Shown piece by piece: positions 5,136 through 44,316 of a stretch of 64,000 nucleotides of DNA. The position numbers were made by a program, and so were the translations under genes. Position 1 is the first letter of the stretch, and each line of letters opens with the position of its first letter. Location of the stretch: positions 158,287 to 222,286 of the forward strand of contig NZ_JAQQTG010000002.1 in the NCBI RefSeq assembly GCF_028561335.1. Direction: 5' to 3'. The notes beneath the pieces were generated by a model. That model searched no databases and was not told the origin of the DNA. It saw nothing but the letters and a program-made list of their open reading frames with translations. Source of the stretch: Aequorivita todarodis (lineage in GTDB: Bacteria > Bacteroidota > Bacteroidia > Flavobacteriales > Flavobacteriaceae).

Positions 5136-5213
5136 AGTACGCAGTAGTCAGTAATTATAATTCGTTCCTAAACTTACTTACGGCTTACTGACTACTGCAT
5201 ACTGAATTACTGA
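5136..5213 (+). repeat. Inverted 7-nt-period repeat after gcvP
   Basis: The left arm (5136-5154, AGTACGCAGTAGTCAGTAA) pairs with the right arm (5185-5203, TTACTGACTACTGCATACT) at 18 of 19 positions plus a G-T pair, across a 30-nt loop. Each arm is built of 7-nt words sharing AGTA or TACT at the same phase, and the right side continues to about 5213. It could terminate gcvP transcription, although no T-run follows. Confidence 0.75.
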
Positions 5214-5246
5214 ATTTTCCGTATTTTTAACAAAACTTTTCAATTT

Positions 5247-6305
5247 ATGAATGTCAAAATAACCGGTATAGGCAGTTATATTCCGAGTGAAATTGCAAAG
5301 AATGAACAATTCGGCAACCATCATTTTTACAATGAGGACGGTACCCGTTTTGGCCAAGAAAATGAAACTATTATTGAAAAGTTCAAGGCTATTACCGGAA
5401 TTGCTGAACGACGCTATATTCCCAAAAACCTAAGTACTTCAGACATTGCCTCCTTTGCGGCAGAAAATGCTATTAAAAGCGCGGGAGTAGATAAAGAAAC
5501 GCTTGATTATATTATTGTGGCGCATAATTACGGCGATGTAAAACACGGTTCGGTGCAGAGCGATACTGTGCCCAGTATTGCAACCCGCGTAAAGCACAAT
5601 CTCAAAATCCAGAATCCAACCTGTGTGGGCTACGATGTACTCTTCGGCTGTCCAGGCTGGATTGAAGGCATGATTCAGGCGTATGCATTTATAAAGGCAG
5701 GCATTGCCAAAAAATGTTTGGTCGTAGGTGCCGAAGCCCTTTCCCGGGTTGTTGACCCACACGACCGCGATTCCATGATCTATAGTGATGGCGCAGGCGC
5801 GGCGGTGGTGGAAGCTACTGATGAAGCTGGAGGAATACTCACGCATTTCAGCGCGACCTATGCCTTTGAGGAAGCGCATTTTATCTTTTTTGGCGAAAGC
5901 AACAATCTGGAGAAAAAAGACAACCGCCGTTACATAAAAATGTATGGCAGAAAGATTTATGAATTTGCATTGAACCACGTGCCAGATGCCATGAAAACCT
6001 GTCTGGATAAAAGTGGAATGGACATAGACGAGGTAAAAAAGATCTTTATCCACCAGGCCAACGAAAAGATGGACGAGGCCATCGTAACCCGTTTTTATAA
6101 ACTTTACGGCAAAACCCCTCCCGAAAAAATAATGCCGATGAGTATTGACAAATTAGGCAACAGCAGTGTGGCGACCGTTCCTACGTTATACGACTTGGTG
6201 CTAAATGGGGAGCTAAAGGGCCATTCCATCCAAAAAGGCGATGTTGTTATTTTTGCAAGCGTGGGCGCGGGCATGAATATTAATGCGATTGTTTATAAGG
6301 TTTAG
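5247..6305 (+). CDS. 3-oxoacyl-ACP synthase III family protein
   Basis: A 352-residue thiolase-fold condensing enzyme of the FabH/KAS III type. The catalytic triad is visible: Cys135 in LFGCPGWIEG, His269 in IFIHQANEKMD and Asn305 in LGNSSVATVP. The family joins an acyl-CoA to malonyl-ACP or performs related condensations. At 352 residues it is slightly longer than housekeeping FabH (about 320-330) and has an insertion near the N-terminus (NHHFYNEDGTRFGQENE). It is therefore probably a paralogue, not the essential FabH. It stands alone between repeat-bearing spacers. The substrate is unknown. Confidence 0.85.
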   Translation: MNVKITGIGSYIPSEIAKNEQFGNHHFYNEDGTRFGQENETIIEKFKAITGIAERRYIPKNLSTSDIASFAAENAIKSAGVDKETLDYIIVAHNYGDVKHGSVQSDTVPSIATRVKHNLKIQNPTCVGYDVLFGCPGWIEGMIQAYAFIKAGIAKKCLVVGAEALSRVVDPHDRDSMIYSDGAGAAVVEATDEAGGILTHFSATYAFEEAHFIFFGESNNLEKKDNRRYIKMYGRKIYEFALNHVPDAMKTCLDKSGMDIDEVKKIFIHQANEKMDEAIVTRFYKLYGKTPPEKIMPMSIDKLGNSSVATVPTLYDLVLNGELKGHSIQKGDVVIFASVGAGMNINAIVYKV

Positions 6306-6380
6306 TCCCACTAACCCCCCAAAAGGGATTTTAGCAAAACCCAAACCATAGTACTTATAACTTTTTATACATAAAAGCTA

Positions 6381-6418
6381 CAACTTTAGGCACTTACAAC
6401 TTTTCAACTTTAGGCACT
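6381..6418 (+). repeat. Direct repeat CAACTTTAGGCACT in spacer
   Basis: CAACTTTAGGCACT occurs at 6381-6394 and again at 6405-6418, with ACTTACAACTTTTCAACTTT-like words between, just before the methyltransferase start at 6425. It belongs to the 7-nt-period intergenic repeats described elsewhere in this window. Confidence 0.6.
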
Positions 6419-6424
6419 AAAAAA

Positions 6425-6961
6425 ATGTACGAAGGCAAGTTTCCGAAAAAAAGATACAAAAAAACCCTTCTTTTCCTTAACGAAGTTGTTTCTAAAGAAG
6501 AAAAGATCCTCGATTTGGGCGTTGCAAATCCATTCTCTGAAATTCTTACCAAAGAGGGTTTTAATGTAACCAATACAAGCGGCGAAGACCTCGACTTAAA
6601 CACAACAGTTGTAAAAACTGGACAATTCGATGTGGTTACGGCCTTTGAAATCTTTGAACATTTGGTTTCTCCTTTTAATGTATTGCAAGATATTCAAGCC
6701 AAAAAATTGGTAGCTTCCGTCCCTTTAAAATTGTGGTTTGCTTCGGCTTATAAAAGCAAAACCGACAAATGGGACCGCCATTACCACGAGTTTGAGGATT
6801 GGCAATTTGACTGGCTTTTGGAAAAAGCCGGTTGGCGAATCGTGAAAAGCGAAAAATTCACCAATCCCGTAAAAAAGATAGGGGCACGGCCAATTCTTCG
6901 TAAGATTACCCCGCGGTATTATTTGGTTTATGCGGAAAGGCAATCTTCTTTTAACCCTTAA
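6425..6961 (+). CDS. Class I SAM-dependent methyltransferase (small)
   Basis: A 178-residue protein with a Rossmann-type methyltransferase core. It has a SAM-binding segment (EKILDLGVANPFSEILTKEG), an acidic second-strand region (GEDLDLN) and FDVVTAFEIFEHL, the usual motif IV/V region of the Methyltransf_11/23 group. It is shorter than most full enzymes. Two more envelope or glycan-type genes follow in the same direction (a second methyltransferase and a GT2), so a role in modifying a surface polysaccharide or lipid is plausible but unproven. Confidence 0.8.
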   Translation: MYEGKFPKKRYKKTLLFLNEVVSKEEKILDLGVANPFSEILTKEGFNVTNTSGEDLDLNTTVVKTGQFDVVTAFEIFEHLVSPFNVLQDIQAKKLVASVPLKLWFASAYKSKTDKWDRHYHEFEDWQFDWLLEKAGWRIVKSEKFTNPVKKIGARPILRKITPRYYLVYAERQSSFNP

Positions 6962-6973
6962 AAAAATTGATAA

Positions 6974-7762
6974 ATGCATAAAGATTGGATTCTGCTTATC
7001 AAGAAATACACCCCAAAAGAATGGAGGTTTTTCCTTAGAAAATTAAGGCGTGGGGCATTATATATCTCACAAGTATTGTTCGGGTTGAAGATTAAAAAAA
7101 AATACTATTGTCCTATAAATGAAAAAAATTATAGAACATTTATAAAAGATGGAAAATTATTGCTTTCGCTTCATTTAGGCGCAAGGGAACGCCATCGGTT
7201 TATTTGGCATTATCTCACTACAAGTACCAAATTATTCATAGATGAAGCAAAACTGTTACATATTTCGCCAGAATATTGTTTTTATGAAAAATTAAAAGGG
7301 AAGAAGAACCTTCAATATTTCCCAGCAGATAAATTTGAGCCCGGCTACGATTATCTTTCCCTAACCAAAGATTTCGATTTATTGGATTCAGAAATACAGA
7401 CGGAACAATTTGATTTTATTATATGCAACCACGTTTTGGAACATATAGTAGATGATACAATTGCGATAACCAATTTGTTCAAACTATTGAAAAAAGACGG
7501 GACCGCCATTGTCAGCGTACCCATTTTAGAGGACGATGCACCTACGTATGAGGATTATTCAATTATTTGCCCCAAAGAACGAAAACTGCATTTCGGGCAA
7601 TGGGACCATGTGAGATATTACGGGACGGATATTAAAAATCGTTTTATAGATGCCGGATTTAATGTAAAAACCGTAAACTCCTTCGATTATTTCAATGAAG
7701 TGGGGAGAATACGGTTCGGTGTCCCCAAAAAGCAATATCTTTTCCATCTAAATAAATCATAG
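6974..7762 (+). CDS. Methyltransferase domain protein
   Basis: 262 residues. The central part contains FDFIICNHVLEHIVDDTIAI and LLKKDGTAIVSVPI, the hallmark of class I methyltransferases of the Methyltransf_11 type. The canonical glycine-rich SAM loop is poorly conserved. The Lys/Arg-rich N-terminus (MHKDWILLIKKYTPKEWRFF) could lie at the membrane surface. It follows the first methyltransferase by 12 nt, so the two are probably co-transcribed. Target unknown. Confidence 0.75.
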   Translation: MHKDWILLIKKYTPKEWRFFLRKLRRGALYISQVLFGLKIKKKYYCPINEKNYRTFIKDGKLLLSLHLGARERHRFIWHYLTTSTKLFIDEAKLLHISPEYCFYEKLKGKKNLQYFPADKFEPGYDYLSLTKDFDLLDSEIQTEQFDFIICNHVLEHIVDDTIAITNLFKLLKKDGTAIVSVPILEDDAPTYEDYSIICPKERKLHFGQWDHVRYYGTDIKNRFIDAGFNVKTVNSFDYFNEVGRIRFGVPKKQYLFHLNKS

Positions 7763-7817
7763 CTGAACACGGTTTCCAAAATAGAATTCGAAATCTCGAT
7801 TTAAGTCCAATTTTGCC

Positions 7818-8672
7818 TTGAATATCTACATCGTCATCCCCGCCCATAACGAAGAAGCACATCTTTCAAAAACGCTTCAATCCTTGGCGGAACAAACCTT
7901 TCTTCCGAAGAAAGTAGTCGTGGTAAACGATGCCTCTACCGACGGCACCCAAAAAATAATCGATCAGTTTTCAGAAGAACACCCCTTTATTAAAGGGATC
8001 TTTTTTGATTCCGAAAAACTGCACGCGCCGGGAAGCAAAGTAATAAATGCTTTTTACAAAGGTTTTGAAACTGTCAATACAGATTTTGACATTATTTGCA
8101 AATTTGATGCAGACTTGATCTTCCCAGAAAACTATCTTCAAAAACTTACCGAACACTTTCAAAAGAATCCAACTTTTGGTATGGTAGGTGGCTTTTGTAC
8201 CGTTGAAAAAAACGGCCATTGGGTTTTGGAAAATTTGACTGATAAGGACCACATTCGCGGGGCGCTGAAGGCCTATCGCAAAAAATGTTTCGAACAAATA
8301 GGCGGGCTAAAAAAATCCATGGGCTGGGACACCGTGGACGAACTCGTCGCGCAGTACCACGGGTGGAAAGTAAAGACCGATCCTTCGCTGCACGTAAAGC
8401 ATTTAAAACCTACGGGCAAAGTCTATACAAAAGCCTCAAAACACAAACAGGGCGAGGCTTTCTATAAAATGCGCTATGGGTTTTGGCTAACGCTTATGGC
8501 TTCGGCAAAACTCGCTTCCAAAAAAAGAAGTTTTTCATTTTTCGTGGATACGATGAAGGGTTTTTCCAAAGCGAAAAGAGCCAATCAGGAATTTATCGTT
8601 TCAGAAAAAGAAGGCACCTTTATTCGAAAATTGCGTTGGAAAAACATTCGAAGGAAATTGGGGATTGGTTGA
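7818..8672 (+). CDS. Family 2 glycosyltransferase
   Basis: 284 residues with a GT-A fold signature: IYIVIPAHNEEAHLSKTL at the N-terminus, VVNDASTDGT for nucleotide-sugar binding, and CKFDADLIFP with the DxD-type metal site. The acceptor region includes GGLKKSMGWDTVDELVAQ. The start is TTG at 7818, chosen because it begins exactly at the first beta strand. No membrane anchor is evident. It follows two methyltransferase genes and may act on a cell-surface glycan; donor and acceptor cannot be read from the sequence. Confidence 0.88.
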   Translation: MNIYIVIPAHNEEAHLSKTLQSLAEQTFLPKKVVVVNDASTDGTQKIIDQFSEEHPFIKGIFFDSEKLHAPGSKVINAFYKGFETVNTDFDIICKFDADLIFPENYLQKLTEHFQKNPTFGMVGGFCTVEKNGHWVLENLTDKDHIRGALKAYRKKCFEQIGGLKKSMGWDTVDELVAQYHGWKVKTDPSLHVKHLKPTGKVYTKASKHKQGEAFYKMRYGFWLTLMASAKLASKKRSFSFFVDTMKGFSKAKRANQEFIVSEKEGTFIRKLRWKNIRRKLGIG

Positions 8673-8678
8673 TTCGGG

Positions 8679-8696
8679 TCCCGATAGCTATCGGGA
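8679..8696. repeat. REP-like palindrome TCCCGATAGCTATCGGGA
   Basis: A perfect 18-nt palindrome just after the glycosyltransferase stop. The same sequence occurs inside tonB (34660-34677) and, with one change, at 18440-18457. It could serve as an intrinsic RNA hairpin here, but no T-run follows. Confidence 0.85.
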
Positions 8697-8782
8697 TTGG
8701 AATTTTGAATATAACAACATCCCCTTAACACTTCATCCCTTTTATATTCTTTATTTTTGCAGATTAAACTTATATCATCAAA

Positions 8783-9883: not shown

Positions 9884-9888
9884 TTCGG

Positions 9889-9930
9889 CATACTGCAACT
9901 GAACACTGAACACTGCTTACTGCTTACTGA
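9889..9930 (+). repeat. Six 7-nt words (nnACTGn) after alkaline phosphatase
   Basis: CATACTG, CAACTGA, ACACTGA, ACACTGC, TTACTGC and TTACTGA follow one another without a gap six bases after the stop codon. The ACTG core keeps a strict 7-nt period while the flanking bases vary. The words are close to those in the repeat after gcvP. Confidence 0.85.
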
Positions 9931-9998
9931 CTTTCTTAACTCACTTTTATAAAATACAATGATCTAATTTTAGTACTTTAGCCCAAGCTATCTGTTTT

Positions 9999-11500: not shown

Positions 11501-11503
11501 TCC

Positions 11504-14028: not shown

Positions 14029-14113
14029 GTTTAAATGTTTAGCGTTTATAAGTTTAGCGCCGGTACTAAAGATAGTTTTTAATTTAAACACCTAAACTTT
14101 TAAACTTATAAAC
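14029..14113 (-). repeat. Inverted GTTTA / TAAAC repeat between SprT-like gene and manC
   Basis: The left side (14029-14058) has GTTTA at 14029, 14037, 14044 and 14052 (steps of 8, 7, 8). The right side has TAAAC at 14085, 14093, 14101 and 14109, a strict 8-nt period that runs to the SprT-like stop codon. The two sides are inverted copies and can pair. It may end the SprT-like transcript before manC. Confidence 0.8.
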
Positions 14114-14713
14114 TCATCGACTCAAAAATTCCACCTCCGCATTCGGATTGAAAAGATACGTTCTTCCCGTGGCAACTTCCAAACATTCAAAACGTTTTAC
14201 GCGCTGTTTGCCGCGCTTAAAAATTTTGCCGTTGTACAATCTGAAATGCCCCCCAAAGGGAATCTCAAAGATATAGTTTTTATCGTTCTCTGGGTCGAAT
14301 TGTTTTAGCGCCAAAGCCAATGCCGCATCGGTATCGCTGGAGGCTTTCGGGTTTTTGAAATGGCGCGCAAGCAAAGGCAGTAGCTGGTTTGGGAAAACCT
14401 CTGGCCGCAAAAAAGGCAGCATCAAAAGCTGAAAGGTGCGCTTCCACTCCAAACCGTGCGGCTTTATGAGCCGACCGTATTTTGTAAAGGCTTCCAAATG
14501 GGCTATTTCGTGCACTAACGTAATTAAAAAACGGTATTTGTTCAAGGTAGCGTTTACGGTAATTTGGTGCTGGCCGTTTGCCATTTTCCGATAATCGCCG
14601 TGCCTTGTTACACGCTCGTTGACTATTTTCAGATGCACCTTATGGGATTTTATCATTTCAAAAACAGCGGCAACGGATGCTTGGGGTATGTATTTCTCTA
14701 AAATTTCCGTCAT
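14114..14713 (-). CDS. SprT-like zinc metalloprotease-type protein
   Basis: 199 residues with the HExxH zinc motif of the SprT/Spartan group (LVHEIAHLEAF) and a basic segment that follows (KPHGLEWKRTFQLLMLP). In the family this fold is linked to DNA-protein crosslink or other DNA-associated proteolysis, although bacterial members are poorly characterised. It lies 3 nt after the SDR gene, in the same direction, so the two are probably co-transcribed. The usual C-terminal zinc ribbon is not obvious. Confidence 0.8.
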   Translation of the reverse strand: MTEILEKYIPQASVAAVFEMIKSHKVHLKIVNERVTRHGDYRKMANGQHQITVNATLNKYRFLITLVHEIAHLEAFTKYGRLIKPHGLEWKRTFQLLMLPFLRPEVFPNQLLPLLARHFKNPKASSDTDAALALALKQFDPENDKNYIFEIPFGGHFRLYNGKIFKRGKQRVKRFECLEVATGRTYLFNPNAEVEFLSR

Positions 14714-17185: not shown

Positions 17186-17196
17186 TTCTTTTATGT

Positions 17197-17231
17197 AGAT
17201 TTTAGATTTGAGATATTAGATTTTAGATTGC
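17197..17231 (-). repeat. Five AGATTnn heptads between pdhA and aceF
   Basis: AGATTTT, AGATTTG, AGATATT, AGATTTT and AGATTGC are joined without a gap (plus-strand reading) 12 nt upstream of the aceF start. Strict 7-nt period. Confidence 0.85.
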
Positions 17232-17296
17232 TGTTTTAAAAAGAATTTAAACCATCGATTCTCAAATAATACCTGCTGTTCAATGCTTAACTTTTC

Positions 17297-18295
17297 TTAT
17301 AATTTATCGGATAAAAACGGGTAATCCTCTTGCTCATAAACAGCATCGAACATTACGTTCTTTTCTGGGTACGGCGAATCTTCCGCGAACTTTTCGCATT
17401 CGTCCACCAAATCCTTCACTCTTTGGTCAATCTTTTTTATCTCGGCTTCCGTCGCCCACTTATTTTCATAAATCTGGTGAAGCACGTAGGTAATCGGGTC
17501 TTCTTCCTGCTTTTTGGCAACTTCCTCTTTGGTGCGGTAATGCTGGGCATCGCTCATGGAATGGCCTCTATAGCGATAGGTACGCAATTCCAAGAAGGTA
17601 GGGCCATCGCCGCGACGGGCGCGTTTGATTGCTTCGTCCATTTCCTTGGCTACCACTTCGGGCTTCATTCCGTCCACAGGTTTGCAGGGCATTTCATAGC
17701 CAAGTCCGAGTTTCCAAATGTCGGTATGGTTGGCGGTTCGCGCTACGGAAGTTCCCATGGCGTATCCGTTGTTTTCACAGCAAAAAACCACCGGAAGTTT
17801 CCAAAGCATGGCGAGGTTAAAAGTTTCGTGCAGCGAACCCTGGCGCACGGCGCCATCGCCCATATAGGTTAGGGTAACCGAATCCCTTTCAAAATATTTA
17901 TCGGCAAAGGCCAAACCTGCTCCAAGCGGAATCTGGCCGCCCACAATGCCGTGGCCGCCATAAAATCGGTTTTTCTTATCAAAAATGTGCATGGAACCTC
18001 CCAGACCCTGCGATGTGCCGGTGCCCTTGCCGTACAATTCGGCCATTACTTTCTTGGGGTCGGTGCCCATCCCGATAGGCTGTACGTGGTTTCGGTAGGC
18101 GGTAATCATCCTGTCCTTAGAAAGGTCCATGGCGTGGAGCGCCCCTGCCAATACGGCTTCCTGGCCGTTGTAAAGGTGTAAAAAGCCCCTTACTTTTTGA
18201 TTGATATATACTTGCGCCAGTTTATCTTCAAACTTGCGCCAAAAGAGCATGTTCTCGTACCAATCCAGATACGTTTTTTTGGTGATTTTCTTCAT
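17297..18295 (-). CDS. pdhA: Pyruvate dehydrogenase E1 component, alpha subunit
   Basis: 332 residues, the size of a separate alpha subunit. The thiamine diphosphate motif is GDGAVRQGSLHETFNLAMLW ending in ENNGYAMGTS. The phosphorylation-loop region RYRGHSMSDAQHYRTKEE is conserved. It decarboxylates pyruvate and loads E2 lipoyl groups, together with a beta subunit that must be encoded elsewhere. The product of aceF downstream is its partner. The promoter below lies in the repeat-bearing spacer. Confidence 0.95.
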   Translation of the reverse strand: MKKITKKTYLDWYENMLFWRKFEDKLAQVYINQKVRGFLHLYNGQEAVLAGALHAMDLSKDRMITAYRNHVQPIGMGTDPKKVMAELYGKGTGTSQGLGGSMHIFDKKNRFYGGHGIVGGQIPLGAGLAFADKYFERDSVTLTYMGDGAVRQGSLHETFNLAMLWKLPVVFCCENNGYAMGTSVARTANHTDIWKLGLGYEMPCKPVDGMKPEVVAKEMDEAIKRARRGDGPTFLELRTYRYRGHSMSDAQHYRTKEEVAKKQEEDPITYVLHQIYENKWATEAEIKKIDQRVKDLVDECEKFAEDSPYPEKNVMFDAVYEQEDYPFLSDKL

Positions 18296-18318
18296 TAGTA
18301 ATTTTATTGAGCGGATAA

Positions 18319-18351
18319 CAAAAGTAGTACTTTAAAAGGGAAAGCACCAAA
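18319..18351 (-). promoter_or_regulatory. Promoter of pdhA
   Basis: On the minus strand TTTG (18351-18348), 21 nt and TACTTTTG (18326-18319) match the Bacteroidota promoter TTG-N17-23-TAnnTTTG, 24 nt before the pdhA start. The -33 TTTG is the first word of a 7-nt-period array (CCAAATT-type words on the plus strand). Confidence 0.6.
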
Positions 18352-18490
18352 TTCAAAATTCCAAATACCAAAGAAATTACAAAATTCATGTTCCTATCGA
18401 AGTTTCGGGGCCAAAGAAATCTCAAATTCGGGATTTGGGTCCCGATCGCTATCGGGATGGGATTTGGAATTTGGAATTTGGAATTTGGAA
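18347..18490. repeat. Inverted CCAAATT / TTTGGAA arrays around a REP palindrome
   Basis: The left arm has CCAAATT, CAAAATT, CCAAATA and CCAAAGA (18347-18374). The right arm has four perfect TTTGGAA copies (18463-18490). Between them, at 18440-18457, is TCCCGATCGCTATCGGGA, a one-base variant of the palindrome at 8679 and 34660. The block fills most of the spacer between pdhA and cdd (18296-18569), where no gene is seen. Confidence 0.85.
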
Positions 18491-18537
18491 TTTTTTTATT
18501 AAGAATCGTATAGTTCCAAAACAAGATTTAGGGCATC

Positions 18538-18570
18538 AAAAGCTCCCCCTTCGGGAGCTGGGGGGCTTTT
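18538..18570 (-). terminator. GC-rich hairpin at the cdd stop
   Basis: AAAAGCTCCCCC and GGGGGGCTTTT pair over a short loop directly at the end of cdd. Read on the minus strand it ends in GGAGCTTTT, a weak intrinsic terminator. The sequence type (CCCCC-TTCGGGAGC-GGGGG) also resembles a dispersed REP element. Confidence 0.55.
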
Positions 18571-19052
18571 CAAAGGTATTTCGCATCAAACCCCAACGGC
18601 AGTAAATCCATAACCGAAGCCACTTTAATAATCTCGCCAGTTTCGCCCGTAAAGTAGATGTTGATGGGCGATTTCTGTTTTTGCTCATACTCTGCCAACG
18701 ACTGTCTGCAGGCGCCACAGGGGGCAATGGCCTCAGTAACTTCGTGGCTTTCGGCGCGCACGGTAATGGCGAGGTCGGTTATCGTTTCGTTCGGAAAATT
18801 GGCGCCCGCGCTGAAAACGGCAACCCTTTCGGCACAAAGTCCCGACGGAAAAGCGGCATTTTCCTGGTTGCTGCCCAAAACGATTTCTCCCGAAGCAAGC
18901 CGGAGCGCCGCCCCGACCCTAAAACGCGAATAAGGCGCATAAGCATTTTCACGTGCTTGCTGCGCCTTATTCATTAATTCTTGAATGTCTTTTGGTAGCT
19001 CTGAAACGGTTTCAAAAACTTCCAACTGAATTTCAATTTTTTGTTTTTTCAA
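18570..19052 (-). CDS. cdd: Cytidine deaminase
   Basis: 160 residues; hydrolytic deamination of cytidine/deoxycytidine in pyrimidine salvage. Zinc ligands and the catalytic Glu are in GLCAERVAVFSAG and APCGACRQSLAEY; the substrate segment YSRFRVGAAL is present. It starts with TTG at 19052, where the family N-terminal helix begins; no ATG is available. It sits beside porV and porU, an order I recall as common in flavobacteria. Confidence 0.94.
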   Translation of the reverse strand: MKKQKIEIQLEVFETVSELPKDIQELMNKAQQARENAYAPYSRFRVGAALRLASGEIVLGSNQENAAFPSGLCAERVAVFSAGANFPNETITDLAITVRAESHEVTEAIAPCGACRQSLAEYEQKQKSPINIYFTGETGEIIKVASVMDLLPLGFDAKYL

Positions 19053-19058
19053 TTTTTT

Positions 19059-19171
19059 GTTTATAGGTTTAGGAGTTTAAGCGTTTATGAGCCTACCCGC
19101 AGAAAGAAATTGAGTAAAAAGAAAACAATTTTGTTTGTCTTCACATCTAAACTTTTAAACTTTTAAACTCT
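19059..19171 (-). repeat. Inverted 8-nt-period GTTTA / TAAAC repeat between porV and cdd
   Basis: The left arm is GTTTATAG, GTTTAGGA, GTTTAAGC and GTTTATGA (19059-19090). The right arm is TAAACTTT, TAAACTTT and TAAACTCT (19148-19171), reaching to 5 nt before the porV stop. Both arms have an exact 8-nt period and are inverted to each other, which suggests a hairpin that ends the porV transcript before cdd. Confidence 0.8.
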
Positions 19172-19175
19172 TTTT

Positions 19176-24522: not shown

Positions 24523-26193
24523 ATGATGTTAAGAAAAAACCTAGCATTAAAGCTATTTGTTACTGTAATAGCGGCCTCACTTCTTGTAGGCTGCAACAAA
24601 ACGAGAGACTATAAAAACAGTTCCCGCGCCACAGGCTGGAAGATGAACGCCAAAGAAGGTGGTTTCCAGTATGACCCAAAAGCCAAAGAACAGGAAACAG
24701 GGCCAGGCCTTGTGTTTGTTGAAGGGGGAACGTTTACCATGGGAAGGGTTCAGGACGACCCGATGCACGATTGGAACAACTCTCCAAACCAGCAGCACGT
24801 TCAATCTTTTTACATGGATGAAACAGAGGTAACCAACCTAATGTATCTTGAATACTTAGACTGGCTGAAGAAAGTTTTCCCTCCATCCGATGAAAATTAC
24901 AGAAAAATTTATGAAGGCGCAGTGCCAGATACCCTTGTTTGGAGAAACCGTTTGGGCTTTAACGAGGTAATGACCAACAACTACCTTCGCCACCCTGCCT
25001 ATTCGGAATATCCCGTAGTGGGAGTTAGCTGGATTCAAGCTGTTGAGTTCAGTAATTGGAGAACAGACCGCGTTAACGAAGCAGCCTTGGAAAGCGCAGG
25101 AATTACAGCCCGAAATGCGCGTTATGATGTGAAACCAGGCGAAACATTCAGTACAGAAACTTATTTAAACGCTCCAACATTAACCTACGGTGGCAACGAT
25201 TCCATTACCCGTGGTGGAAAAAAATCTGAAGCCATTGCCAAAAGAAGCAAAGACAGCACAAACTTATACATCGGCCGAAAAGATGGAATCCTTTTGCCGG
25301 CCTACCGACTTCCTACCGAAACAGAGTGGGAGTATGCCGCACTTGGATTAGTTGGGCTCCGTAACTACAATGTTTACAGAGGAAAGAAAAAATATCCTTG
25401 GGAAGGACAATATACCCGCTCGGGAAAAAGAAGATCCCGCGGCGACCAATTGGCCAACTTTAAACAAGGCGATGGCGATTATGGCGGTATAGCAGGCTGG
25501 AGTGATGACGGTGCCGATATTACTGCTGAAGTAAAATCTTATGAGCCAAACGATTTCGGCCTTTATGATATGGCTGGTAACGTTGCAGAGTGGGTTGCCG
25601 ATGTTTATCGCCCCATTGTTGATGACGAGTTTAATGACTTCAACTATTACCGTGGAAACGTTTACACCAAAAACGCCATAGGCGAAGATGGAAAAGTAAA
25701 AGTAGTTACTATGGACTCTATTGTTTTTGACACGTTGAGCAACGGAAAAATTGTAGCCCGCAACTTGCCGGGAGAAATTCTTCAAGTGCCGGTTGATGAA
25801 AACGAAACATACTTACGCACAAACTTCTCCAAAAGCGATAACCGCGATTATAGAGATGGAGACAAAAGTTCCTCACGATACTACCAATCTTTCGCAGATG
25901 ACGAAAGCAGTGATGGCACCCACCGTATGTACAACTCGCCAATTCAAAAAGTATATGCAGATAGCCTGGGAGAACTGGATCGTCAGTACGATAAATCTTC
26001 AAACAGGACTACTTTGATTAACAATGAAGTTCGCGTGTATAAAGGAGGTTCCTGGAGAGATCGGGATTATTGGTTAGACCCCGCGCAAAGACGTTATTTC
26101 CCACAGGATATGGCAACGGACTATATTGGTTTTAGATGTGCTATGAGCCGCGTTGGTTCAAAATCCAAAAAAGGAAAACGACCACGCAATTAG
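24523..26193 (+). CDS. gldJ: Gliding motility lipoprotein GldJ
   Basis: 556 residues. The lipoprotein signal ends at LLVGC (Cys24). The rest is a formylglycine-generating-enzyme/sulfatase-modifying fold (FVEGGTFTMGR, PVVGVSWIQAVEFSNW, RLPTETEWEYAA, YDMAGNVAEWVAD, VYKGGSWRDRDYW). GldJ is an essential component of gliding and T9SS complexes, where the fold is structural. The start could equally be the second ATG at 24526. It is divergent from porU across 219 nt and followed by murF. Confidence 0.94.
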   Translation: MMLRKNLALKLFVTVIAASLLVGCNKTRDYKNSSRATGWKMNAKEGGFQYDPKAKEQETGPGLVFVEGGTFTMGRVQDDPMHDWNNSPNQQHVQSFYMDETEVTNLMYLEYLDWLKKVFPPSDENYRKIYEGAVPDTLVWRNRLGFNEVMTNNYLRHPAYSEYPVVGVSWIQAVEFSNWRTDRVNEAALESAGITARNARYDVKPGETFSTETYLNAPTLTYGGNDSITRGGKKSEAIAKRSKDSTNLYIGRKDGILLPAYRLPTETEWEYAALGLVGLRNYNVYRGKKKYPWEGQYTRSGKRRSRGDQLANFKQGDGDYGGIAGWSDDGADITAEVKSYEPNDFGLYDMAGNVAEWVADVYRPIVDDEFNDFNYYRGNVYTKNAIGEDGKVKVVTMDSIVFDTLSNGKIVARNLPGEILQVPVDENETYLRTNFSKSDNRDYRDGDKSSSRYYQSFADDESSDGTHRMYNSPIQKVYADSLGELDRQYDKSSNRTTLINNEVRVYKGGSWRDRDYWLDPAQRRYFPQDMATDYIGFRCAMSRVGSKSKKGKRPRN

Positions 26194-26247
26194 AAATTAG
26201 AAATTAGAAAAACAGCCCTCCTGGCATACAGCTTCGGAGGGTTTTTT
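26190..26247 (+). terminator. Terminator after gldJ, preceded by TTAGAAA x3
   Basis: CCCTCC (26216-26221) and GGAGGG (26236-26241) form a stem followed by six T, a standard intrinsic terminator. Directly before it, three perfect TTAGAAA heptads (26190-26210) begin within the gldJ stop codon, another 7-nt-period tract. Confidence 0.85.
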
Positions 26248-27722: not shown

Positions 27723-27782
27723 CAAAATACAAATTCCAAATAACAAAATACAAATTAATCCAAACCTTCAAATATCAAATTT
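27723..27782 (-). repeat. CAAA words with 7-nt period after YitT gene
   Basis: CAAA recurs at 27723, 27730, 27737, 27744 and 27751, exactly 7 nt apart, and again at 27769 and 27776, with a short irregular stretch between. It lies between the YitT stop and the tRNA-Val gene. Confidence 0.75.
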
Positions 27783-30818: not shown

Positions 30819-30902
30819 GTTAGGCGTTAAGCATTAAATGTTAAGCGTTAAGTGTTAAGCGTTAGGCGTTAGGTGTTAAGTGTTAAGCGTTAGGCGTTAA
30901 TT
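30819..30902. repeat. Twelve GTTARGY heptads upstream of folC
   Basis: GTTAGGC, GTTAAGC, ATTAAAT, GTTAAGC, GTTAAGT, GTTAAGC, GTTAGGC, GTTAGGT, GTTAAGT, GTTAAGC, GTTAGGC, GTTAATT: a gapless array with an exact 7-nt period. The word is nearly the same as the perfect array at 42078-42200 (GTTAAGT when read in that phase). Confidence 0.92.
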
Positions 30903-34085: not shown

Positions 34086-34919
34086 CTATTCAGAAAGACT
34101 GAATTTGTAGATAATCTTTCCAATCTGCTTTGCAGGTGCCTTATCGTCAGCATTGAATTTAGTTGCCAAAGCAGCACGTTTTGCGGGTTCGGTAAGACAT
34201 CGGGAATTGTTGGTGGTGCCGCGTACGCCGGGAGTGGCACTAATTACTTTTCCGCTTCGGTCAACTTCAATGCTCACAACCACGGTTCCGGCTTCGTTGC
34301 AATCCTGAATAAACTTTTCTTTATTTAAAGCTTTTCTTCCGCCGAGCAAATAATTGCCGTCTCCGTCCAATCCCTTTCCGGTGCCGTAATAACTATTCGC
34401 ATTGGGATCGCCATCTGGGCTACCTTTGTCTCCGGGATTGTTGTCGTTGCCCTCGCCTCCTTTTGCGGTGCCGTCACTTTTCGGGCCGTTCAAAATACTG
34501 GAAAGCGCATCTGTGGTGGATTTATCGGGTTTTGGGTCTGGTTTTTTGACCTCTTTTTTGGGTTGTTCTTTTACGGGAGTTTCCGTTTGCTGTTTTTTGG
34601 GTTTTTCTTTTTTAATTACCGGCGCATCTTCGTTATCCTGCGTTACCACTTCTTCTTTTTCCCGATAGCTATCGGGATCAGATTTTGGTTGTGAAACGGG
34701 CTGGGCAGTAGTTTTTTGAGGCGCCGATTGTATTTTTTCAGTGGGCTGAATGTTTCCACTTCCAGTTTCCGTTGTGCCAAAATTAACCGCTATGCCCTGC
34801 TCCAATGGCGGATCCAGATACTTCATTCCCACATAAAACAAAAGAATAAGAATGATTACATGCACGATTACCGTGATGATCATACTTTTTCTTTTATGTT
34901 CGGTATCTAATAAATTCAA
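34086..34919 (-). CDS. tonB: Energy transducer TonB
   Basis: 277 residues. One N-terminal membrane helix (about 12-33, IITVIVHVIILILLFYVGM), then a long periplasmic linker rich in Pro, Lys, Glu and Gln, a Gly/Asn/Asp-rich part (about 150-185) and a C-terminal TonB-type domain (VSIEVDRSGKVISATPGVRG...GKIIYKFSLSE). It transmits proton-motive force from ExbB/ExbD to outer-membrane receptors. The start is TTG at 34919, supported by the N-terminal TEHKRKS segment; this codon lies inside a heptad array. The linker segment SDPDSYREK is encoded by an inserted REP palindrome. Confidence 0.9.
   Translation of the reverse strand: MNLLDTEHKRKSMIITVIVHVIILILLFYVGMKYLDPPLEQGIAVNFGTTETGSGNIQPTEKIQSAPQKTTAQPVSQPKSDPDSYREKEEVVTQDNEDAPVIKKEKPKKQQTETPVKEQPKKEVKKPDPKPDKSTTDALSSILNGPKSDGTAKGGEGNDNNPGDKGSPDGDPNANSYYGTGKGLDGDGNYLLGGRKALNKEKFIQDCNEAGTVVVSIEVDRSGKVISATPGVRGTTNNSRCLTEPAKRAALATKFNADDKAPAKQIGKIIYKFSLSE
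34660..34677. repeat. REP palindrome inside tonB
   Basis: The perfect palindrome TCCCGATAGCTATCGGGA, the same as at 8679-8696, lies within the tonB reading frame and is exactly 18 nt (6 codons). It encodes D-P-D-S-Y-R-E in the flexible linker, so the frame and the protein are kept. Confidence 0.9.
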
Positions 34920-34987
34920 GATTTAAAATTTAAGATTCAAGATTCAAAGTTTGGGGTTTGGGGTTTGGGGTTTGGGGTTTCAGGTTA
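34918..34987. repeat. AAGATTn and GGGGTTT heptads at tonB start
   Basis: AAGATTT, AAAATTT, AAGATTC, AAGATTC, AAAGTTT, then four perfect GGGGTTT and CAGGTTA, an unbroken 7-nt period over 70 nt. The phase starts on the tonB start codon itself. This shows a change of word within one array without loss of period. Confidence 0.9.
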
Positions 34988-39045: not shown

Positions 39046-39103
39046 AACGTTTTTAATCTAAACTTACCTTGAGGAAGTAACACGAACAAAAAAAATCCAG
39101 AAC

Positions 39104-39135: not shown

Positions 39136-39162
39136 GCTATAAAATAGATTATTTAAAATTAG

Positions 39163-39588: not shown

Positions 39589-39674
39589 AATTTTTGAGAA
39601 TTTATTTATTAGGAATACTAAAATAAAAAAAAACAAATAAGTCCGATAAAAAGGGTGGAAATATCTCGAAAAAA

Positions 39675-40733
39675 TTAATAATAAATTTTCCCCGAAGAAT
39701 GATCCTCCAACGCCCCAGTTACACTCGCCAAACAATTTACCTCGTCGCGCAATTTCAACACACCCAAAAGTCCAAAAATAAGCGCTTCCTTATATTCCAC
39801 AATTTCTGGGGAAGGAATAATAACCTCAACCGGAGCGCAATTTTTCAGCCTTTCAATCAAAAAAGAATTGTATGCGCCACCGCCGGTTATCAATACGGAA
39901 GCATTATCTGAAAATTGATTGGCAAGCTGCAGGGCAATATGTTCCGTAAACGTCCGCAAAATAGCTTCGGAAGAAATTCCGGAAGCGTCCAACAGTGGGA
40001 AGATTTGCGCTTTTACCCATTCCAAACCCAAGGATTTAGGCGGTTCTTCCGCATAAAAAGAAAGCGAGTTCAATTTTTGAAGCAATTCTTCATTCACTTT
40101 ACCCGAAGCGGCCAGTTTTCCGTCTTCGTCAAAATCCTGCCCGAGTTTTTCGGCGTAATTGTTTAAAACGATATTCACCGGACAAATATCAAAAGCAATC
40201 CGTTCGCCATTTTTTTCAAAAGAACAATTCGCAAAACCGCCCAAATTCAAACAATAATCGTATTCCGGAAACAGCAAGCGATCGCCAATGGGCACCAGCG
40301 GCGCGCCCTGTCCGCCCAACTCCACATCCTGCACCCGAAAGTCGCAAACCACGGTTTGCCCGAGCATTTTTGAAATGCGCGGCAGATTGCCAATTTGGTA
40401 GGTCAATCCTTTTTCGGGGCGGTGCAAAATGGTGTGGCCGTGACTACAGATTGTGTCAATTTCAAGAATGTTGTATTTTCTTATAAATTTTGAAATTTCT
40501 TCGGAAAGTTTTTCGGTGTATTTAAAATCGAGCCGCTCCAGTTTTTCTTCGGAATAGTTGATGGCTTCGCGAAGTTCATCTTTCCAAAAAGAGGAATAGG
40601 GAACGGTTTCGGCAGCGAGGATTTCAAACTTCCATTTTGCTTCGGAATACGTAAAAACAATTTCCGCCAAATCAATCCCATCCAGCGAAGTGCCGCTCAT
40701 TACGCCAACAATATGATATTTCTGTTTTTTCAA
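39675..40733 (-). CDS. anmK: Anhydro-N-acetylmuramic acid kinase
   Basis: 352 residues. ATP-binding motifs are GVMSGTSLDGIDLA at the N-terminus and VLITGGGAYNSFLIERL near the C-terminus; VVCDFRVQDVELGGQGAPLVP contains the catalytic Asp region. The enzyme phosphorylates and cleaves 1,6-anhydroMurNAc in cell-wall recycling. It is divergent from the acyl-CoA dehydrogenase across a repeat-filled 195-nt spacer. Confidence 0.94.
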   Translation of the reverse strand: MKKQKYHIVGVMSGTSLDGIDLAEIVFTYSEAKWKFEILAAETVPYSSFWKDELREAINYSEEKLERLDFKYTEKLSEEISKFIRKYNILEIDTICSHGHTILHRPEKGLTYQIGNLPRISKMLGQTVVCDFRVQDVELGGQGAPLVPIGDRLLFPEYDYCLNLGGFANCSFEKNGERIAFDICPVNIVLNNYAEKLGQDFDEDGKLAASGKVNEELLQKLNSLSFYAEEPPKSLGLEWVKAQIFPLLDASGISSEAILRTFTEHIALQLANQFSDNASVLITGGGAYNSFLIERLKNCAPVEVIIPSPEIVEYKEALIFGLLGVLKLRDEVNCLASVTGALEDHSSGKIYY

Positions 40734-40777
40734 ATAATTTTAATTTACAGATATGAAAGATACATTTGAAAAGCTTG

Positions 40778-40867
40778 AAATCCCAAATTACAAGCACCAA
40801 ATTCCAAAACATTTTTTTTTTGGAATTTGGAATTTGAGATTTGGTGCTTAAATGTTATTTGGGATTT
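40778..40867. repeat. Inverted heptad arms between anmK and acyl-CoA dehydrogenase
   Basis: The left arm is AAATCCC, AAATTAC, AAGCACC, AAATTCC (40778-40805). The right arm is TTTGGAA, TTTGGAA, TTTGAGA, TTTGGTG, CTTAAAT, GTTATTT, GGGATTT (40819-40867). Each is in 7-nt steps, and TTTGGTGCTT and TTTGGGATTT of the right arm match the reverse complement of the left. It occupies a divergent promoter region, so it is not simply a terminator. Confidence 0.88.
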
Positions 40868-40890
40868 GCTTTATTTTTAAAGTACATTTG
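40858..40890 (+). promoter_or_regulatory. Promoter of acyl-CoA dehydrogenase
   Basis: TTTG (40858-40861), 21 nt, TACATTTG (40883-40890) fit the Bacteroidota consensus. The -33 TTTG is formed by the last words of the heptad array. Confidence 0.6.
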
Positions 40891-40928
40891 CAATTCTTTA
40901 AAACGAACTTTTCTCAAAAATAAAGCCT

Positions 40929-42071
40929 ATGGATTTCAACCTATCCGAAGAACAAATGATGATCCGCGATGCCGCTCGCGATTTTGCCCGCACCGAATTG
41001 CTTCCGGGCGTTATAGAGCGCGATAACCTGCAAAAATTCCCGACGGAACAAGTCAAAAAAATGGGCGAGCTCGGTTTCCTCGGAATGATGGTGGATCCAA
41101 AATACGGCGGGGGCGGAATGGATACCGTTAGTTACGTTTTGGTAATGGAAGAACTCAGCAAAATAGATGCTTCCTGCTCTGTAATTGTTTCCGTAAATAA
41201 TTCCTTGGTTTGTTACGGCCTTGAAAAATATGGCTCCGAAGACCAAAAACAAAAATATCTTACAAAACTGGCCATGGGCGAAAAGCTGGGTGCCTTCTGC
41301 CTTAGCGAGCCGGAAGCGGGTAGCGATGCCACTTCGCAAAAAACTACCGCAATTGACAAAGGCGACCATTACATTTTGAATGGCACCAAAAACTGGATCA
41401 CCAACGGGGGGACCGCAGATTATTATTTGGTAATCGCGCAAACCGATAGAGAGAAAAAACACAAGGGCATCAATGCTTTTATTATTGAAAAAGGCTGGGA
41501 AGGTTTTGAAATTGGCCCCAAGGAAGACAAACTCGGCATCCGCGGAAGCGATACGCATTCGTTGATTTTTAACGATGTGAAAGTTCCAAAGGAAAACCGA
41601 ATTGGGGAAGATGGTTTCGGCTTTACATTTGCGATGAAAACCCTTTCCGGAGGACGCATTGGGATTGCCGCCCAAGCTTTGGGGATTGCCGCCGGAGCTT
41701 ATGATTTGGCTCGTGAATATTCCAAGGTGCGAAAAGCTTTTGGCACCGAAATTTGCAACCATCAGGCCATCGCCTTTAAACTCGCCGATATGTACACCAG
41801 CATTGAAGCTGCGCGCCATTTGGTGATGAAAGCGGCTTGGGACAAAGACCAAGGCAACAATTACGATATGAGTGGCGCCATGGCAAAATTATACGCCAGC
41901 CAAGTAGCTATGGATGTTTCTGTGGAAGCGGTCCAGGTTCACGGCGGAAATGGTTATGTGAAGGAATATCACGTAGAACGCTTGATGCGCGATGCGAAGA
42001 TCACACAGATTTACGAAGGAACCTCTGAAATACAGAAGATTGTTATTTCTAGGGGGCTTTTGAGGGATTGA
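40929..42071 (+). CDS. Acyl-CoA dehydrogenase
   Basis: 380 residues, the standard length of short-chain acyl-CoA dehydrogenases. FAD and substrate motifs: GAFCLSEPEAGSDA, LNGTKNWITNGGTADYY, LSGGRIGIAAQALGIAAGAY, and VHGGNGYVKEYHVERLMRDAK. The catalytic base is the Glu in IYEGTSEIQK. It oxidises acyl-CoA to enoyl-CoA and passes electrons to ETF. Butyryl- or short-branched-chain substrates are likely by length but not certain. A perfect heptad array follows 6 nt after the stop. Confidence 0.94.
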   Translation: MDFNLSEEQMMIRDAARDFARTELLPGVIERDNLQKFPTEQVKKMGELGFLGMMVDPKYGGGGMDTVSYVLVMEELSKIDASCSVIVSVNNSLVCYGLEKYGSEDQKQKYLTKLAMGEKLGAFCLSEPEAGSDATSQKTTAIDKGDHYILNGTKNWITNGGTADYYLVIAQTDREKKHKGINAFIIEKGWEGFEIGPKEDKLGIRGSDTHSLIFNDVKVPKENRIGEDGFGFTFAMKTLSGGRIGIAAQALGIAAGAYDLAREYSKVRKAFGTEICNHQAIAFKLADMYTSIEAARHLVMKAAWDKDQGNNYDMSGAMAKLYASQVAMDVSVEAVQVHGGNGYVKEYHVERLMRDAKITQIYEGTSEIQKIVISRGLLRD

Positions 42072-42077
42072 TAGGCT

Positions 42078-42200
42078 TTAAGTGTTAAGTGTTAAGTGTT
42101 AAGTGTTAAGTGTTAAGTGTTAAGTGTTAAGTGTTAAGTGTTAAGTGTTAAGTGTTAAGTGTTAAGTGTTAAGTGTTAAGTGTTAAGTGTTAAGTGTTAA
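42078..42200. repeat. Perfect TTAAGTG heptad array, 17 copies
   Basis: Seventeen identical TTAAGTG units without a single mismatch (42078-42196) plus TTAA, then an A-run. It lies between the convergent acyl-CoA dehydrogenase and porin genes; the remaining spacer to 42313 is A+T-rich without other features. The perfection suggests recent expansion. Confidence 0.97.
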
Positions 42201-42313
42201 AAAAACGAATATTCTTATCCATGACAGTTAATTATATAAAGAAAAGACATTTTTTTTACACTTAAAAGAGCTTATTTCTTAGGATTTTTATTTAAGAGAT
42301 TATTTTACTTTGC

Positions 42314-44197
42314 TTACAGGAAGAAATTCCAAACCAACCCAAATCGCAGCACATTATCGCGATACGGATAGCCCGGCGCGGCAAAATATTCGTTCTTTCC
42401 GCCAAAGAGTGCGGTAAAGTTTTCATAAATAAAGTAAATGCGTGTCTGCCGAATTTTGGCATTGAAGAAAATATCCACCAACGGAAACCCGCCCAATTCC
42501 TGATCGTTCTGCACATAAAACTCTGCCAGCACTGGATCGTAGGCGTTCATATTATATTGTGTGAAGTATTTAAAAGTAACACCCGTCTGCATAAACAAAG
42601 CACGCTTAAACCAATGGTCCTCAAAATAAAGCGAGTTTCGGGTAATGAGCTGTGGCACATTAAAAACCATTTGGCCGCTTAACACCTGCTGGTACATCAA
42701 CGTGTTGTCTAATCCAAAATGCCCGAACTTAAATTCCTTTTCGGCCTTTACTTTTAAATAATCTACCCGTTCCGAAGCCTGCAATGGCGTAGGAGTGCTG
42801 TCGTTGGCCTTTATTCCGAAGTATGCGTAATCGTCAATTCCCGTGTAGCTCACGGAAGCATTCCCGAATTTTTTGGTATTGATTTCAAACTTCAGTTCTT
42901 GGGTTTTTACATTGTTCAGCTCGGTTTTCCAATTGTAGTTTTGGTAATCGCTTTGGTACAATTGAAAATTGAAATTTGGCGCTACGGAATGCACGGTTAT
43001 AGAAGCCTTGGCATTATAATCTTCATTCAAATCATACGATGCTGCGCCTTGCAGATAATTGCCATCATAATCGCCGGCCACGTTTATCGCCCCTTTTCCG
43101 CTGAGCTTAAACCCGCGATATTCCTTTTCATAAGCCGCCCCGGCTTCAATGATGTTTCCTTTTATTCGGTTGGGAATACGTTCTTCATCAAGTATTAAAA
43201 CCGAATTATACCCATAATTAAAATCGGTATAACCTGCCCAAGCCGTAATTTTTCCGATGAGGGAATTATTGAAATCGGCATAGGCCTTCACATTGAAATC
43301 CTCCAGTTTTGTTTCCGTTTCCAAATTGCTGCTTTCATACGAAGGCCCAAAAGCACTGTACGGCGCACTTTGAATATATCTAAAAAATTTATCCTCATAA
43401 CTCAGCACATTTCCAATGGTAAGCACCGAATATCCCGTGCTGTCGCGCTGGCTGAGCAGTTCGTAGTAATGGTCGCCATAAAAACGCAGGCCTTCCAGTT
43501 TGTTTTCGGCATTTTCAAAATTTACGTCCAACCTGCCCCGGTCCCTAAATTCGGGGTCGTCGCTTATGAAAAGCTGCAACGAGTTATCGGTCAGCCCGCC
43601 GTTCTCTTGGTTATAAATGTCCTGGGCCGCCACGTGGGCACGGGCAACATAGCGCTTGCTTTTGGTGTGATAGTTTGAGGTGAATAGAAAATTACCCGTG
43701 CTCGTTAAAATATGTTGGTACTTCCCGAGCGAGCGGACCCCTTTATAGCCAATTGAAAAATTGAATTGCGGCGAAGTGTTCACCGTAAAAAAAGCATCCA
43801 ATTGTTGCCCTTGCTCATAAGCGGTCTTAAAATAAAGCTCGGTAAGCGGCGTGGGCACGTTGAAATAATTCACACCCGCTATTTCTTTATAATTGAAATG
43901 GTGCGACTGCGCGGCAAAAAGCGGTTTCAAGTTTAATCTGTCGAAGGAATAGGCAAGCGAATTGTACGTCTGCCCCACGTTTGAAAACTGAAGCAGCTCA
44001 AAATTGTCCTTTCTTAAATAATTGAATTTATATTTTTTGTGAATGGAAAGTGTCGTATCCACAAAAGTAGTATCGCGGGCGGTCGAAATGATTTTGTAAT
44101 AATCAATCGGCGGTTTTTCCTTTTTTGCGGAAGGAGTTTGCGAAAACACAGTTGCCGAAGCAGAGATAATAAGAAGGAGCAAAAGTGTCTTTTTCAT
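42314..44197 (-). CDS. Putative outer-membrane porin (Porin_10 type)
   Basis: 627 residues with a signal peptide (MKKTLLLLLIISASATVFSQ) and alternating aromatic/hydrophobic strands through the C-terminus, ending in a Phe-rich strand (VLRFGLVWNFFL) typical of beta barrels. The segment HKKYKFNYLRKDNFELLQFSNVGQTYN matches the conserved start of the Porin_10 putative porins of Bacteroidota. Substrate unknown. TACCTTTG at 44225-44218 (minus) may be its -7 box. Confidence 0.85.
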   Translation of the reverse strand: MKKTLLLLLIISASATVFSQTPSAKKEKPPIDYYKIISTARDTTFVDTTLSIHKKYKFNYLRKDNFELLQFSNVGQTYNSLAYSFDRLNLKPLFAAQSHHFNYKEIAGVNYFNVPTPLTELYFKTAYEQGQQLDAFFTVNTSPQFNFSIGYKGVRSLGKYQHILTSTGNFLFTSNYHTKSKRYVARAHVAAQDIYNQENGGLTDNSLQLFISDDPEFRDRGRLDVNFENAENKLEGLRFYGDHYYELLSQRDSTGYSVLTIGNVLSYEDKFFRYIQSAPYSAFGPSYESSNLETETKLEDFNVKAYADFNNSLIGKITAWAGYTDFNYGYNSVLILDEERIPNRIKGNIIEAGAAYEKEYRGFKLSGKGAINVAGDYDGNYLQGAASYDLNEDYNAKASITVHSVAPNFNFQLYQSDYQNYNWKTELNNVKTQELKFEINTKKFGNASVSYTGIDDYAYFGIKANDSTPTPLQASERVDYLKVKAEKEFKFGHFGLDNTLMYQQVLSGQMVFNVPQLITRNSLYFEDHWFKRALFMQTGVTFKYFTQYNMNAYDPVLAEFYVQNDQELGGFPLVDIFFNAKIRQTRIYFIYENFTALFGGKNEYFAAPGYPYRDNVLRFGLVWNFFL

Positions 44198-44245
44198 TCT
44201 TTAAATAAACTTTCGGGCAAAGGTATATTTTTTTTGGCTGAAAGG

Positions 44246-44316
44246 GTTATTGTGTTATTGAGTTATTAAATACATTTAAACCATCCTTTTTCAATAACTG
44301 AATAACTTATTAACTT
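44246..44316. repeat. Inverted 8-nt-period GTTATT / AATAAC repeat
   Basis: The left arm is GTTATTGT, GTTATTGA, GTTATTAA (44246-44269). The right arm is AATAACTG, AATAACTT, ATTAACTT (44293-44316). The arms are inverted and both keep an 8-nt period, in the divergent spacer between the porin and rnhB genes. The right arm overlaps TAACTTTG (44311-44318), the likely -7 box of rnhB. Confidence 0.8.

Follow-up and report, generated by a model that had tools for sequence, protein, structure and literature searches.

The spacers of a 64,000-nucleotide (nt) stretch of an Aequorivita genome (hereafter the window) carry short tandem arrays in which a period of 7 or 8 nt recurs from site to site while the repeated word changes, which raises the question of how a repeat length could be kept where a repeat sequence is not. 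An earlier note on this DNA had listed 14 such sites, argued for a constant period with free words, and offered slippage-driven growth or a spacing-dependent binding or bending need as the cause. Analysis of the window, of 856 kb of the genome and of related genomes confirmed that word-free intergenic arrays of period 7 or 8 are real. The arrays were probably produced by slippage in whole steps of 7–8 nt, together with transfer of words between arrays via template switching.

The window lies on contig C12 of the genome (G000; 3.33 Mb), whose dihydrolipoamide acetyltransferase was 92–93% identical to that of A. vladivostokensis, the closest named record; the genus comparison set comprised 28 Aequorivita genomes. 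Arrays were called at a lag-match score of at least 12 with our own detector, window gaps being taken with a 10 nt flank, and Tandem Repeats Finder (TRF) was the sole published tool used for arrays. Genes were called by a simple longest-open-reading-frame rule (at least 90 aa), not by a trained gene finder, and gaps below 20 nt were dropped from array counts. The 40 gaps of the window (7,035 nt) contained 12 arrays, ten of period 7, two of period 8 and none of any other period. After 100 dinucleotide shuffles of the spacers the mean was 0.02 period-7 and 0.04 period-8 arrays, and the detector found no period-7 or period-8 array in 57.8 kb of window coding DNA. Raw identity at lag 7 was 0.335 in the window spacers and 0.251 in coding DNA. 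The enrichment at lags 7 and 8 thus survived comparison with shuffled spacers, a check that the earlier note had proposed.

The same pattern was found on the larger scale. The 856 kb of the genome (95.2 kb of spacers, 773 kb of coding DNA) contained 86 period-7 and 22 period-8 arrays versus 12 for all other periods combined; the period is therefore sharp, and there is no general excess of repeats. Arrays occupied 90 of the 546 gaps of at least 20 nt. Shuffling predicted approximately one period-7 array over these spacers, and coding DNA held four period-7 arrays compared with the 86 in intergenic DNA. Two relatives assembled as single contigs carried arrays as well (seven of period 7 and five of other periods in 16.4 kb; 13 of period 7, two of period 8 and one other in 22.9 kb), so that collapse of short reads is not the cause and the arrays are no artefact of short-read assembly alone. 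Window and genome counts both support a conserved period with a free word.

Indeed, the 108 arrays of the genome used 66 words. Along single arrays, for example at 30819 and 34918, the word drifted but the phase was kept; the in-phase word switch described at 34918 was borne out by two arrays whose starts lie 35 nt (5 × 7) apart. Words nevertheless recur among sites: pairs of different spacers with an identical word numbered 46, versus 8.6 expected and a maximum of 18 in 300 shuffles. Runs of at least three TTAAGTG copies occurred at seven places in the genome, spread over six contigs, and common flanks were not found for TTAAGTG arrays at different places. A GGG or CCC tract was present in nine of the 66 words (11 of the 108 arrays), and TAACTGA was the modal word of none.

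The order of units within arrays was informative about their origin. In 63 of 79 imperfect arrays of at least five units from 13 genomes, adjacent units were more alike than in shuffled order. Because the detector itself favours likeness between neighbours, synthetic arrays with exchangeable units were run through it as a matched control, 2,370 trials yielding 1,356 usable arrays. The mean neighbour effect was –0.52 in real arrays versus –0.14 in the control (p = 6e-11). Mean unit distance at lags 1 to 4 was 1.29, 1.59, 1.94 and 2.05 in real arrays and 1.20, 1.39, 1.41 and 1.43 in the control; likeness kept falling with distance in real arrays and levelled off in synthetic ones. Since this decay goes beyond the detector control, units look like copies of their neighbours, which makes growth by replication slippage likely.

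Length changes were sought in a pair of close relatives with spacer flanks of at least 96% identity, in which five of 51 spacers had arrays; four spacers containing N were dropped (five at a 94% cut). Two clean changes of whole units were observed, one of +7 in a complete spacer of ATTACTG words and the other of +14 in an array of CTCTTTT. Of the 26 indels of at least 2 nt that lay outside arrays, one measured 7 nt and none 14 nt. At greater divergence, alignments were too noisy for an indel spectrum to be read.

The arrays of the window are listed below in window coordinates; no strand is assigned to any of them.

5186..5215: period-7 array of ACTGNNN words (TACTGAA) after gcvP; TRF, low threshold only
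about 5137-5157: weaker inverted arm of the 5186 array
9898..9929: period-7 array with an in-phase shift from ACTGAAC to ACTGCTT; TRF, detector
14029..14059: left arm, GTTTANN words of 7 or 8 nt; TRF at period 15
14085..14123: right arm, period-8 TAAACNNT words, inverse of the 14029 left arm; detector (whose end overruns about 10 bases into the next gene), inverted-partner test
17186..17296: entire 111-nt spacer at the E1-E2 junction; genus comparison
17196..17229: period-7 array, TAGATTT ×4.9, before the pyruvate dehydrogenase (PDH) E2 gene; TRF, detector
18349..18372: left arm, period-7 AAATTCC words; detector, inverted-partner test
18458..18493: right arm, TGGAATT ×5.1, inverse of the 18349 left arm; TRF, detector, inverted-partner test
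19031..19062: left arm, 8-nt words, covering the TTG predicted as start codon of gene 18570-19052; TRF at period 16
19148..19172: right arm, TAAACTTT ×3; TRF, detector
26188..26210: AATTAGA ×3.3 over the gldJ stop codon; TRF, detector (without flank, low threshold only)
27723..27757: weak period-7 CAAATTN array adjoining a tRNA gene; TRF, low threshold only
30819..30899: mixed TTAAGCG/TTAGGCG/TTAAGTG array of 11–12 units; TRF, detector
34914..34947: ATTCAAG-type array; detector
34949..34986: GTTTGGG array in phase with the 34914 array; TRF, detector
40819..40843: TTTGGAA array, its inverse arm near 40782-40809; TRF, detector, inverted-partner test
42078..42200: TTAAGTG ×17.6, perfect; TRF, detector
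44246..44267: left arm, GTTATTGA ×2.8, period 8; TRF, low threshold
44293..44316: right arm, AATAACTT ×3; TRF, low threshold

The genes gcvP, PDH E2 and gldJ were among those named via a family search. Ten of the 14 sites listed earlier passed the detector (9889, the right arm of 14029, 17197, 18347, the right arm of 19059, 26190, 30819, 34918 as two arrays, 40778 and 42078), and sites 5136, 27723 and 44246 were backed by TRF and a lower threshold only. Site 6381 was lost, having no tandem array in this genome by either TRF or the lower threshold, and an unlisted array, TGGAATT ×5 at 18458-18493, was added. Around 6381, the spacer 6305-6425 consists here of an unrelated 119 nt; among its orthologues, four of eight have a short AATTCAG array and three of eight measure 10 nt or less.

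Comparison of orthologous spacers, which the earlier note had also proposed, recovered arrays only in part: across the 14 sites an array of score at least 12 was present in 23 of 142 comparisons and absent from 119. At 9898, 12 of 17 orthologous spacers had a 68–69 nt form, none of these with an array, and two of the other five had one. Orthologous spacers of 10 nt or less were found at 14029 (6 of 18) and at 19059 (9 of 18, with an array of score 12 in none of the 18). The 18347/18458 site had an array in 8 of 18 orthologous spacers, the 26190 site in none of 17, and copy number of the TTTGGAA array at 40819 varied among relatives. The spacer 18295-18570 was near-identical in genomes G026 and G012 (347 and 346 nt), the other spacers of which differ strongly; this hints at recombination.

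The junction at 17197 lies between the E1 and E2 genes. It measured just 3 nt in 24 of the 28 Aequorivita genomes. A 110-111 nt spacer was common to this genome and A. vladivostokensis, and two other genomes had a different spacer, of 148 and 166 nt, with inverted arms. Between these last two, from two species, the left arm differed by 8 nt and the right by 7 nt, one unit each, and the stretch from the right arm to the start codon by a single 1-nt indel. When the insert of the present genome was searched for (at most 31 candidates scored per genome), matches were obtained in 24 of 28 genomes, nearly all of them within the array part; a few weak matches extended about 20 nt past the array, and a full-length match occurred at one junction, in G000 and G026 only. 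On this search the words are dispersed and the flanks are not.

The trait itself is patchy and not unique to the genus. Nineteen named loci around one gene, taken from the genus (one labelled Flavobacteriaceae only), held 18 period-7, two period-8 and two other arrays in 27.9 kb, and in 74 kb from 61 other Flavobacteriaceae loci around the same gene there were one period-7 array and four others. TTTGGAA ×3 matches guided the choice and sampling of five further genera, whose densities are therefore biased upward; these had 31 period-7 arrays in 47 kb, 26 of them with a different modal word. Of 149 family genomes, TTTGGAA ×3 was present in 13 (reversed control 2) and TTAAGTG ×3 in four (control 0); the octamer CTYTGYGN ×3 was found in 44 of 296 genomes of the phylum and 30 of 140 genera (reversed control 3). 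With the selecting word AAATTCC dropped, four words were common to this genome and the other genera, 1.3 being expected (p = 0.023), a weak effect; 84% of the words of other genera lay within one change of a word found here, compared with 78% of shuffled words. Loss of the hairpin nuclease SbcD was rejected as a cause of the trait: there was no match to TIGR00619 in this genome, but 129 of 149 family genomes likewise had none, and the 20 above the cut-off included two of the 13 genomes with TTTGGAA arrays.

Two inverted arms had been described at several sites. Sufficient spacer for an inverted-partner test remained for 93 of the 108 arrays. A reverse-complement partner of score at least 12 was present in the same spacer for 22 of the 93, which makes the inverted arms real but a minority, and a direct match of that score for eight; the shuffle mean (five shuffles) was 0. 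An earlier test of self-complementarity between spacer halves, since superseded by the array-centred one, had given no excess in 67 array spacers (p = 0.82). Nor was there an excess of RNA structure: the median z was –1.62 in 62 array spacers and –1.05 in 65 controls (p = 0.81), the controls being the usable members of 67 spacers drawn at random from 250 array-free ones. Among individual hairpins, octamers CTTTGCGN ×3 and CGCAAAGN ×3 form arms that, with their loop, are common to four spacers of the genome, including C11:130059-130118 (locus L213) and C12:99846-99868; in two other genomes the octamer arms often flank different palindromes, as if nested. A CCTGCCTG...CAGGCAGG palindrome lies in or beside AAATTCC words in four spacers (C12:24505, C12:111046, C11:73490 and C13:45238), and a CCCGAT...ATCGGG palindrome does so in two, one of them window 18295-18570.

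A bias of strand was found in this genome. Where a start codon but no stop codon lay within 15 nt, the array had the C-rich, G-poor strand in the sense orientation in 19 of 23 cases; where a stop codon but no start codon lay that near, the G-rich strand was in sense in 18 of 27 (p = 6e-4). Arrays with equal C and G, near both codons or near neither had been dropped. The rule was not significant elsewhere: p was 0.61 in other Aequorivita stretches, and 1 in the named loci and other genera, where arrays were few. Co-directional spacers held 90 arrays in 54.7 kb, divergent ones eight in 17.7 kb and convergent ones seven in 9.9 kb; this co-directional enrichment was not repeated in other Aequorivita, with 45 arrays in 63 kb, 22 in 28 kb and seven in 17 kb, respectively.

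In the favoured model, arrays would grow by replication slippage, one unit of 7–8 nt per polymerase step. Template switching between arrays would carry words from one site to another, and inverted arms may arise when the switch is onto the other strand. Selection would act mainly by removing arrays that fall in genes and, at translation starts, copies that are structured; the G-poor strand facing starts and the G-rich strand following stops fits this, a pattern not significant outside this genome. A slipped unit of 7–8 nt would be too long for good detection by mismatch repair. According to an idea of Mrazek cited in PMC4679880, 7–8 nt would also match the stretch of DNA contacted by the polymerase. 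Slippage with template switching explains the period, the free words, their drift, the decay of likeness, the turnover and the avoidance of genes, and slippage was the better fitting of the two ideas put forward earlier, on account of neighbour likeness, its decay and whole-unit indels; the earlier interpretation as a whole is partly supported. Several observations weigh against this model. The 79 arrays of the unit-order set were counted with any orthologous ones left in. At 96% flank identity or above the array indels of at least 2 nt were four (2, 7, 7 and 14 nt), of which one 7 and the 14 were clean by eye and the other two sat in poorly aligning stretches, and at 94% or above there were array indels of 77 and 247 nt too. 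Slippage alone accounts neither for the 110-166 nt spacers at a junction that measures 3 nt in most relatives nor for words found across genera (TTTGGAA, CTYTGYGN). No polymerase or repair gene has been tied to the trait; SbcD, the sole one tested, is not.

Those long spacers and cross-genus words leave some weight to a different origin, in which mobile inverted-repeat elements, resembling miniature inverted-repeat transposable elements (MITEs) or repetitive extragenic palindromic (REP) sequences, insert between genes and the heptamer arrays are their arms, altered after landing. Such an origin would suit the E1-E2 junction, where two separate genome pairs have a long spacer in place of 3 nt, the 22 arrays with inverted partners, and the CTYTGYGN hairpins with common arms and loop at four spacers, whose arm pattern is seen again in other genomes of the phylum. 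The one insert examined gave no sign of the conserved ends or body that a dispersed MITE or REP element should have, although the loop-sharing CTYTGYGN hairpins may differ; only the array part of that insert recurs apart from the few weak overruns, TTAAGTG arrays lie at different places without common flanks, no conserved ends were established, nor any target duplication at the one junction inspected by eye, and 71 of the 93 arrays lack an inverted partner at threshold. Mobile elements are for these reasons unlikely to be the source. A lineage-specific DNA synthesis activity that writes periodic DNA at gene junctions, copying one 7–8-nt unit at a time, jumping strands to give inverted arms and seeding from a stock of words circulated in the phylum, appears improbable. 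That the arrays are intrinsic terminators or structured RNAs is hardly credible: some pairs can form hairpins (18347/18458 and 40778, for example), but array spacers were not more structured than array-free ones, relatives without an array at 26190 keep a separate downstream hairpin with a T run, and Rfam gave two tRNAs and nothing else in the window. A general hairpin or terminator role was accordingly rejected, in agreement with the earlier argument that terminator function could not explain all sites.

The strand bias bears on whether the arrays are selected leader or intercistronic elements, G-poor leaders of period 7 or 8 keeping starts open in bacteria not reliant on Shine-Dalgarno pairing and G-rich arms after stops pairing back or aiding coupling. 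Both halves of the bias (19 versus 4 near starts, 18 versus 9 near stops) agree with such a role, as does the in silico flipping of arrays, after which structure was stronger in 22 of 24 leaders (the mean going from –3.8 to –10.1 kcal/mol); MacGregor (PMC4679880) likewise saw TAACTGA in forward orientation ahead of starts and in reverse following a stop. However, the bias was not significant outside this genome, array-free spacers before starts already leaned to C (C over G in 149 versus 94, ties dropped), native leader arrays were not less structured than shuffled ones (–3.8 versus –2.9), and 119 of 142 orthologous spacers have no array. A selected leader role is, on balance, quite unlikely. 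The sharp period with free words could also reflect binding by a protein that reads spacing and not words. This is very doubtful, because likeness decays along arrays, which speaks against selection on a common pattern, arrays turn over among orthologues, and related loci are nearly array-free; binding of cold-shock proteins to heptamers is a suggestion made for other bacteria (PMC4679880). The need for spacing-dependent binding or bending proposed earlier is not supported, given the 119 array-free orthologous spacers and the decay of likeness, and slippage with template switching remains the probable explanation.

The earlier note knew of no named family that fits. Heptamer simple repeats are a known class, to which the present arrays belong as a form with unusually diverse words. 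What is new in them is that the vocabulary is free, that units carry a nearest-neighbour signature and that words are dispersed but their flanks are not. Among the leading literature matches, with subscription journals mostly outside, no description of the free-word, nearest-neighbour form was recognised. Cyanobacteria have short tandemly repeated repetitive sequences, tandem heptamers that lie between genes and use a few fixed words per strain; the arrays described here are likewise intergenic tandem heptamers, with free words. A tandem-heptamer probe paper is cited in PMC3542288. Among prokaryotes in general, long simple sequence repeats (LSSRs) of 5-11 nt (Mrazek 2007, as cited in PMC4679880 and PMC4692102) similarly peak at heptamers, are intergenic and lineage-specific, and have been attributed to slippage. 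The present arrays share with them fixed-length tandem units beyond chance, with heptamers commonest and mostly outside genes. As to length change by whole units, which slippage would give, there were the two clean cases of +7 and +14, the other array indels not being clean, and the decay along arrays agrees with it. LSSRs were counted as perfect repeats of at least three units in PMC4060949 (Mrazek and Huang 2014), whereas many arrays here are imperfect and drift unit by unit. That paper gives a heptamer median of 0.75 (scale –4 to +4) for 34 Bacteroidetes genera, a weak over-representation, with hexamers and octamers at 0; the heptamer median is 0 in most phyla and higher in Chloroflexi, Deferribacteres and Planctomycetes, and by growth temperature the score peaks in psychrophiles (1.27).

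Two further systems are comparable. The TAACTGA arrays of MacGregor 2015 (PMC4679880) are, like the present ones, heptamers beside start and stop codons with a patchy distribution across genera, and Aequorivita sublithincola is named there, with a relative that has shorter, array-free spacers. They comprise one fixed word, and that paper describes related heptamers as rare in the main genome studied; here TAACTGA is modal in 0 of 108 arrays. In Xanthomonas and Nostoc, the heptamers GGGNATC and GGGGA(C/T)T (Rehm 2015, PMC4692102) resemble the present arrays in being partly inverted pairs, variable in length and sequence and largely intergenic. Each of those genomes uses a single type of G-rich word, which has quadruplex potential and a G tract in each unit; here only 11 of 108 arrays have a word with GGG or CCC.

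The preference of bacterial tandem repeats for 7 nt has been a standing question since the 2007 survey (cited in PMC4679880 and PMC4692102). With an array density of approximately 1.1 per kb (108 arrays over 95.2 kb of spacer), dozens of words, and relatives with and without each array, the step size, birth and spread of such repeats can be measured directly in this genus. The evidence points toward unit-by-unit slippage and the copying of words between sites, and away from a protein that reads one word. Caution is also advised before each heptamer word is named a regulatory motif.

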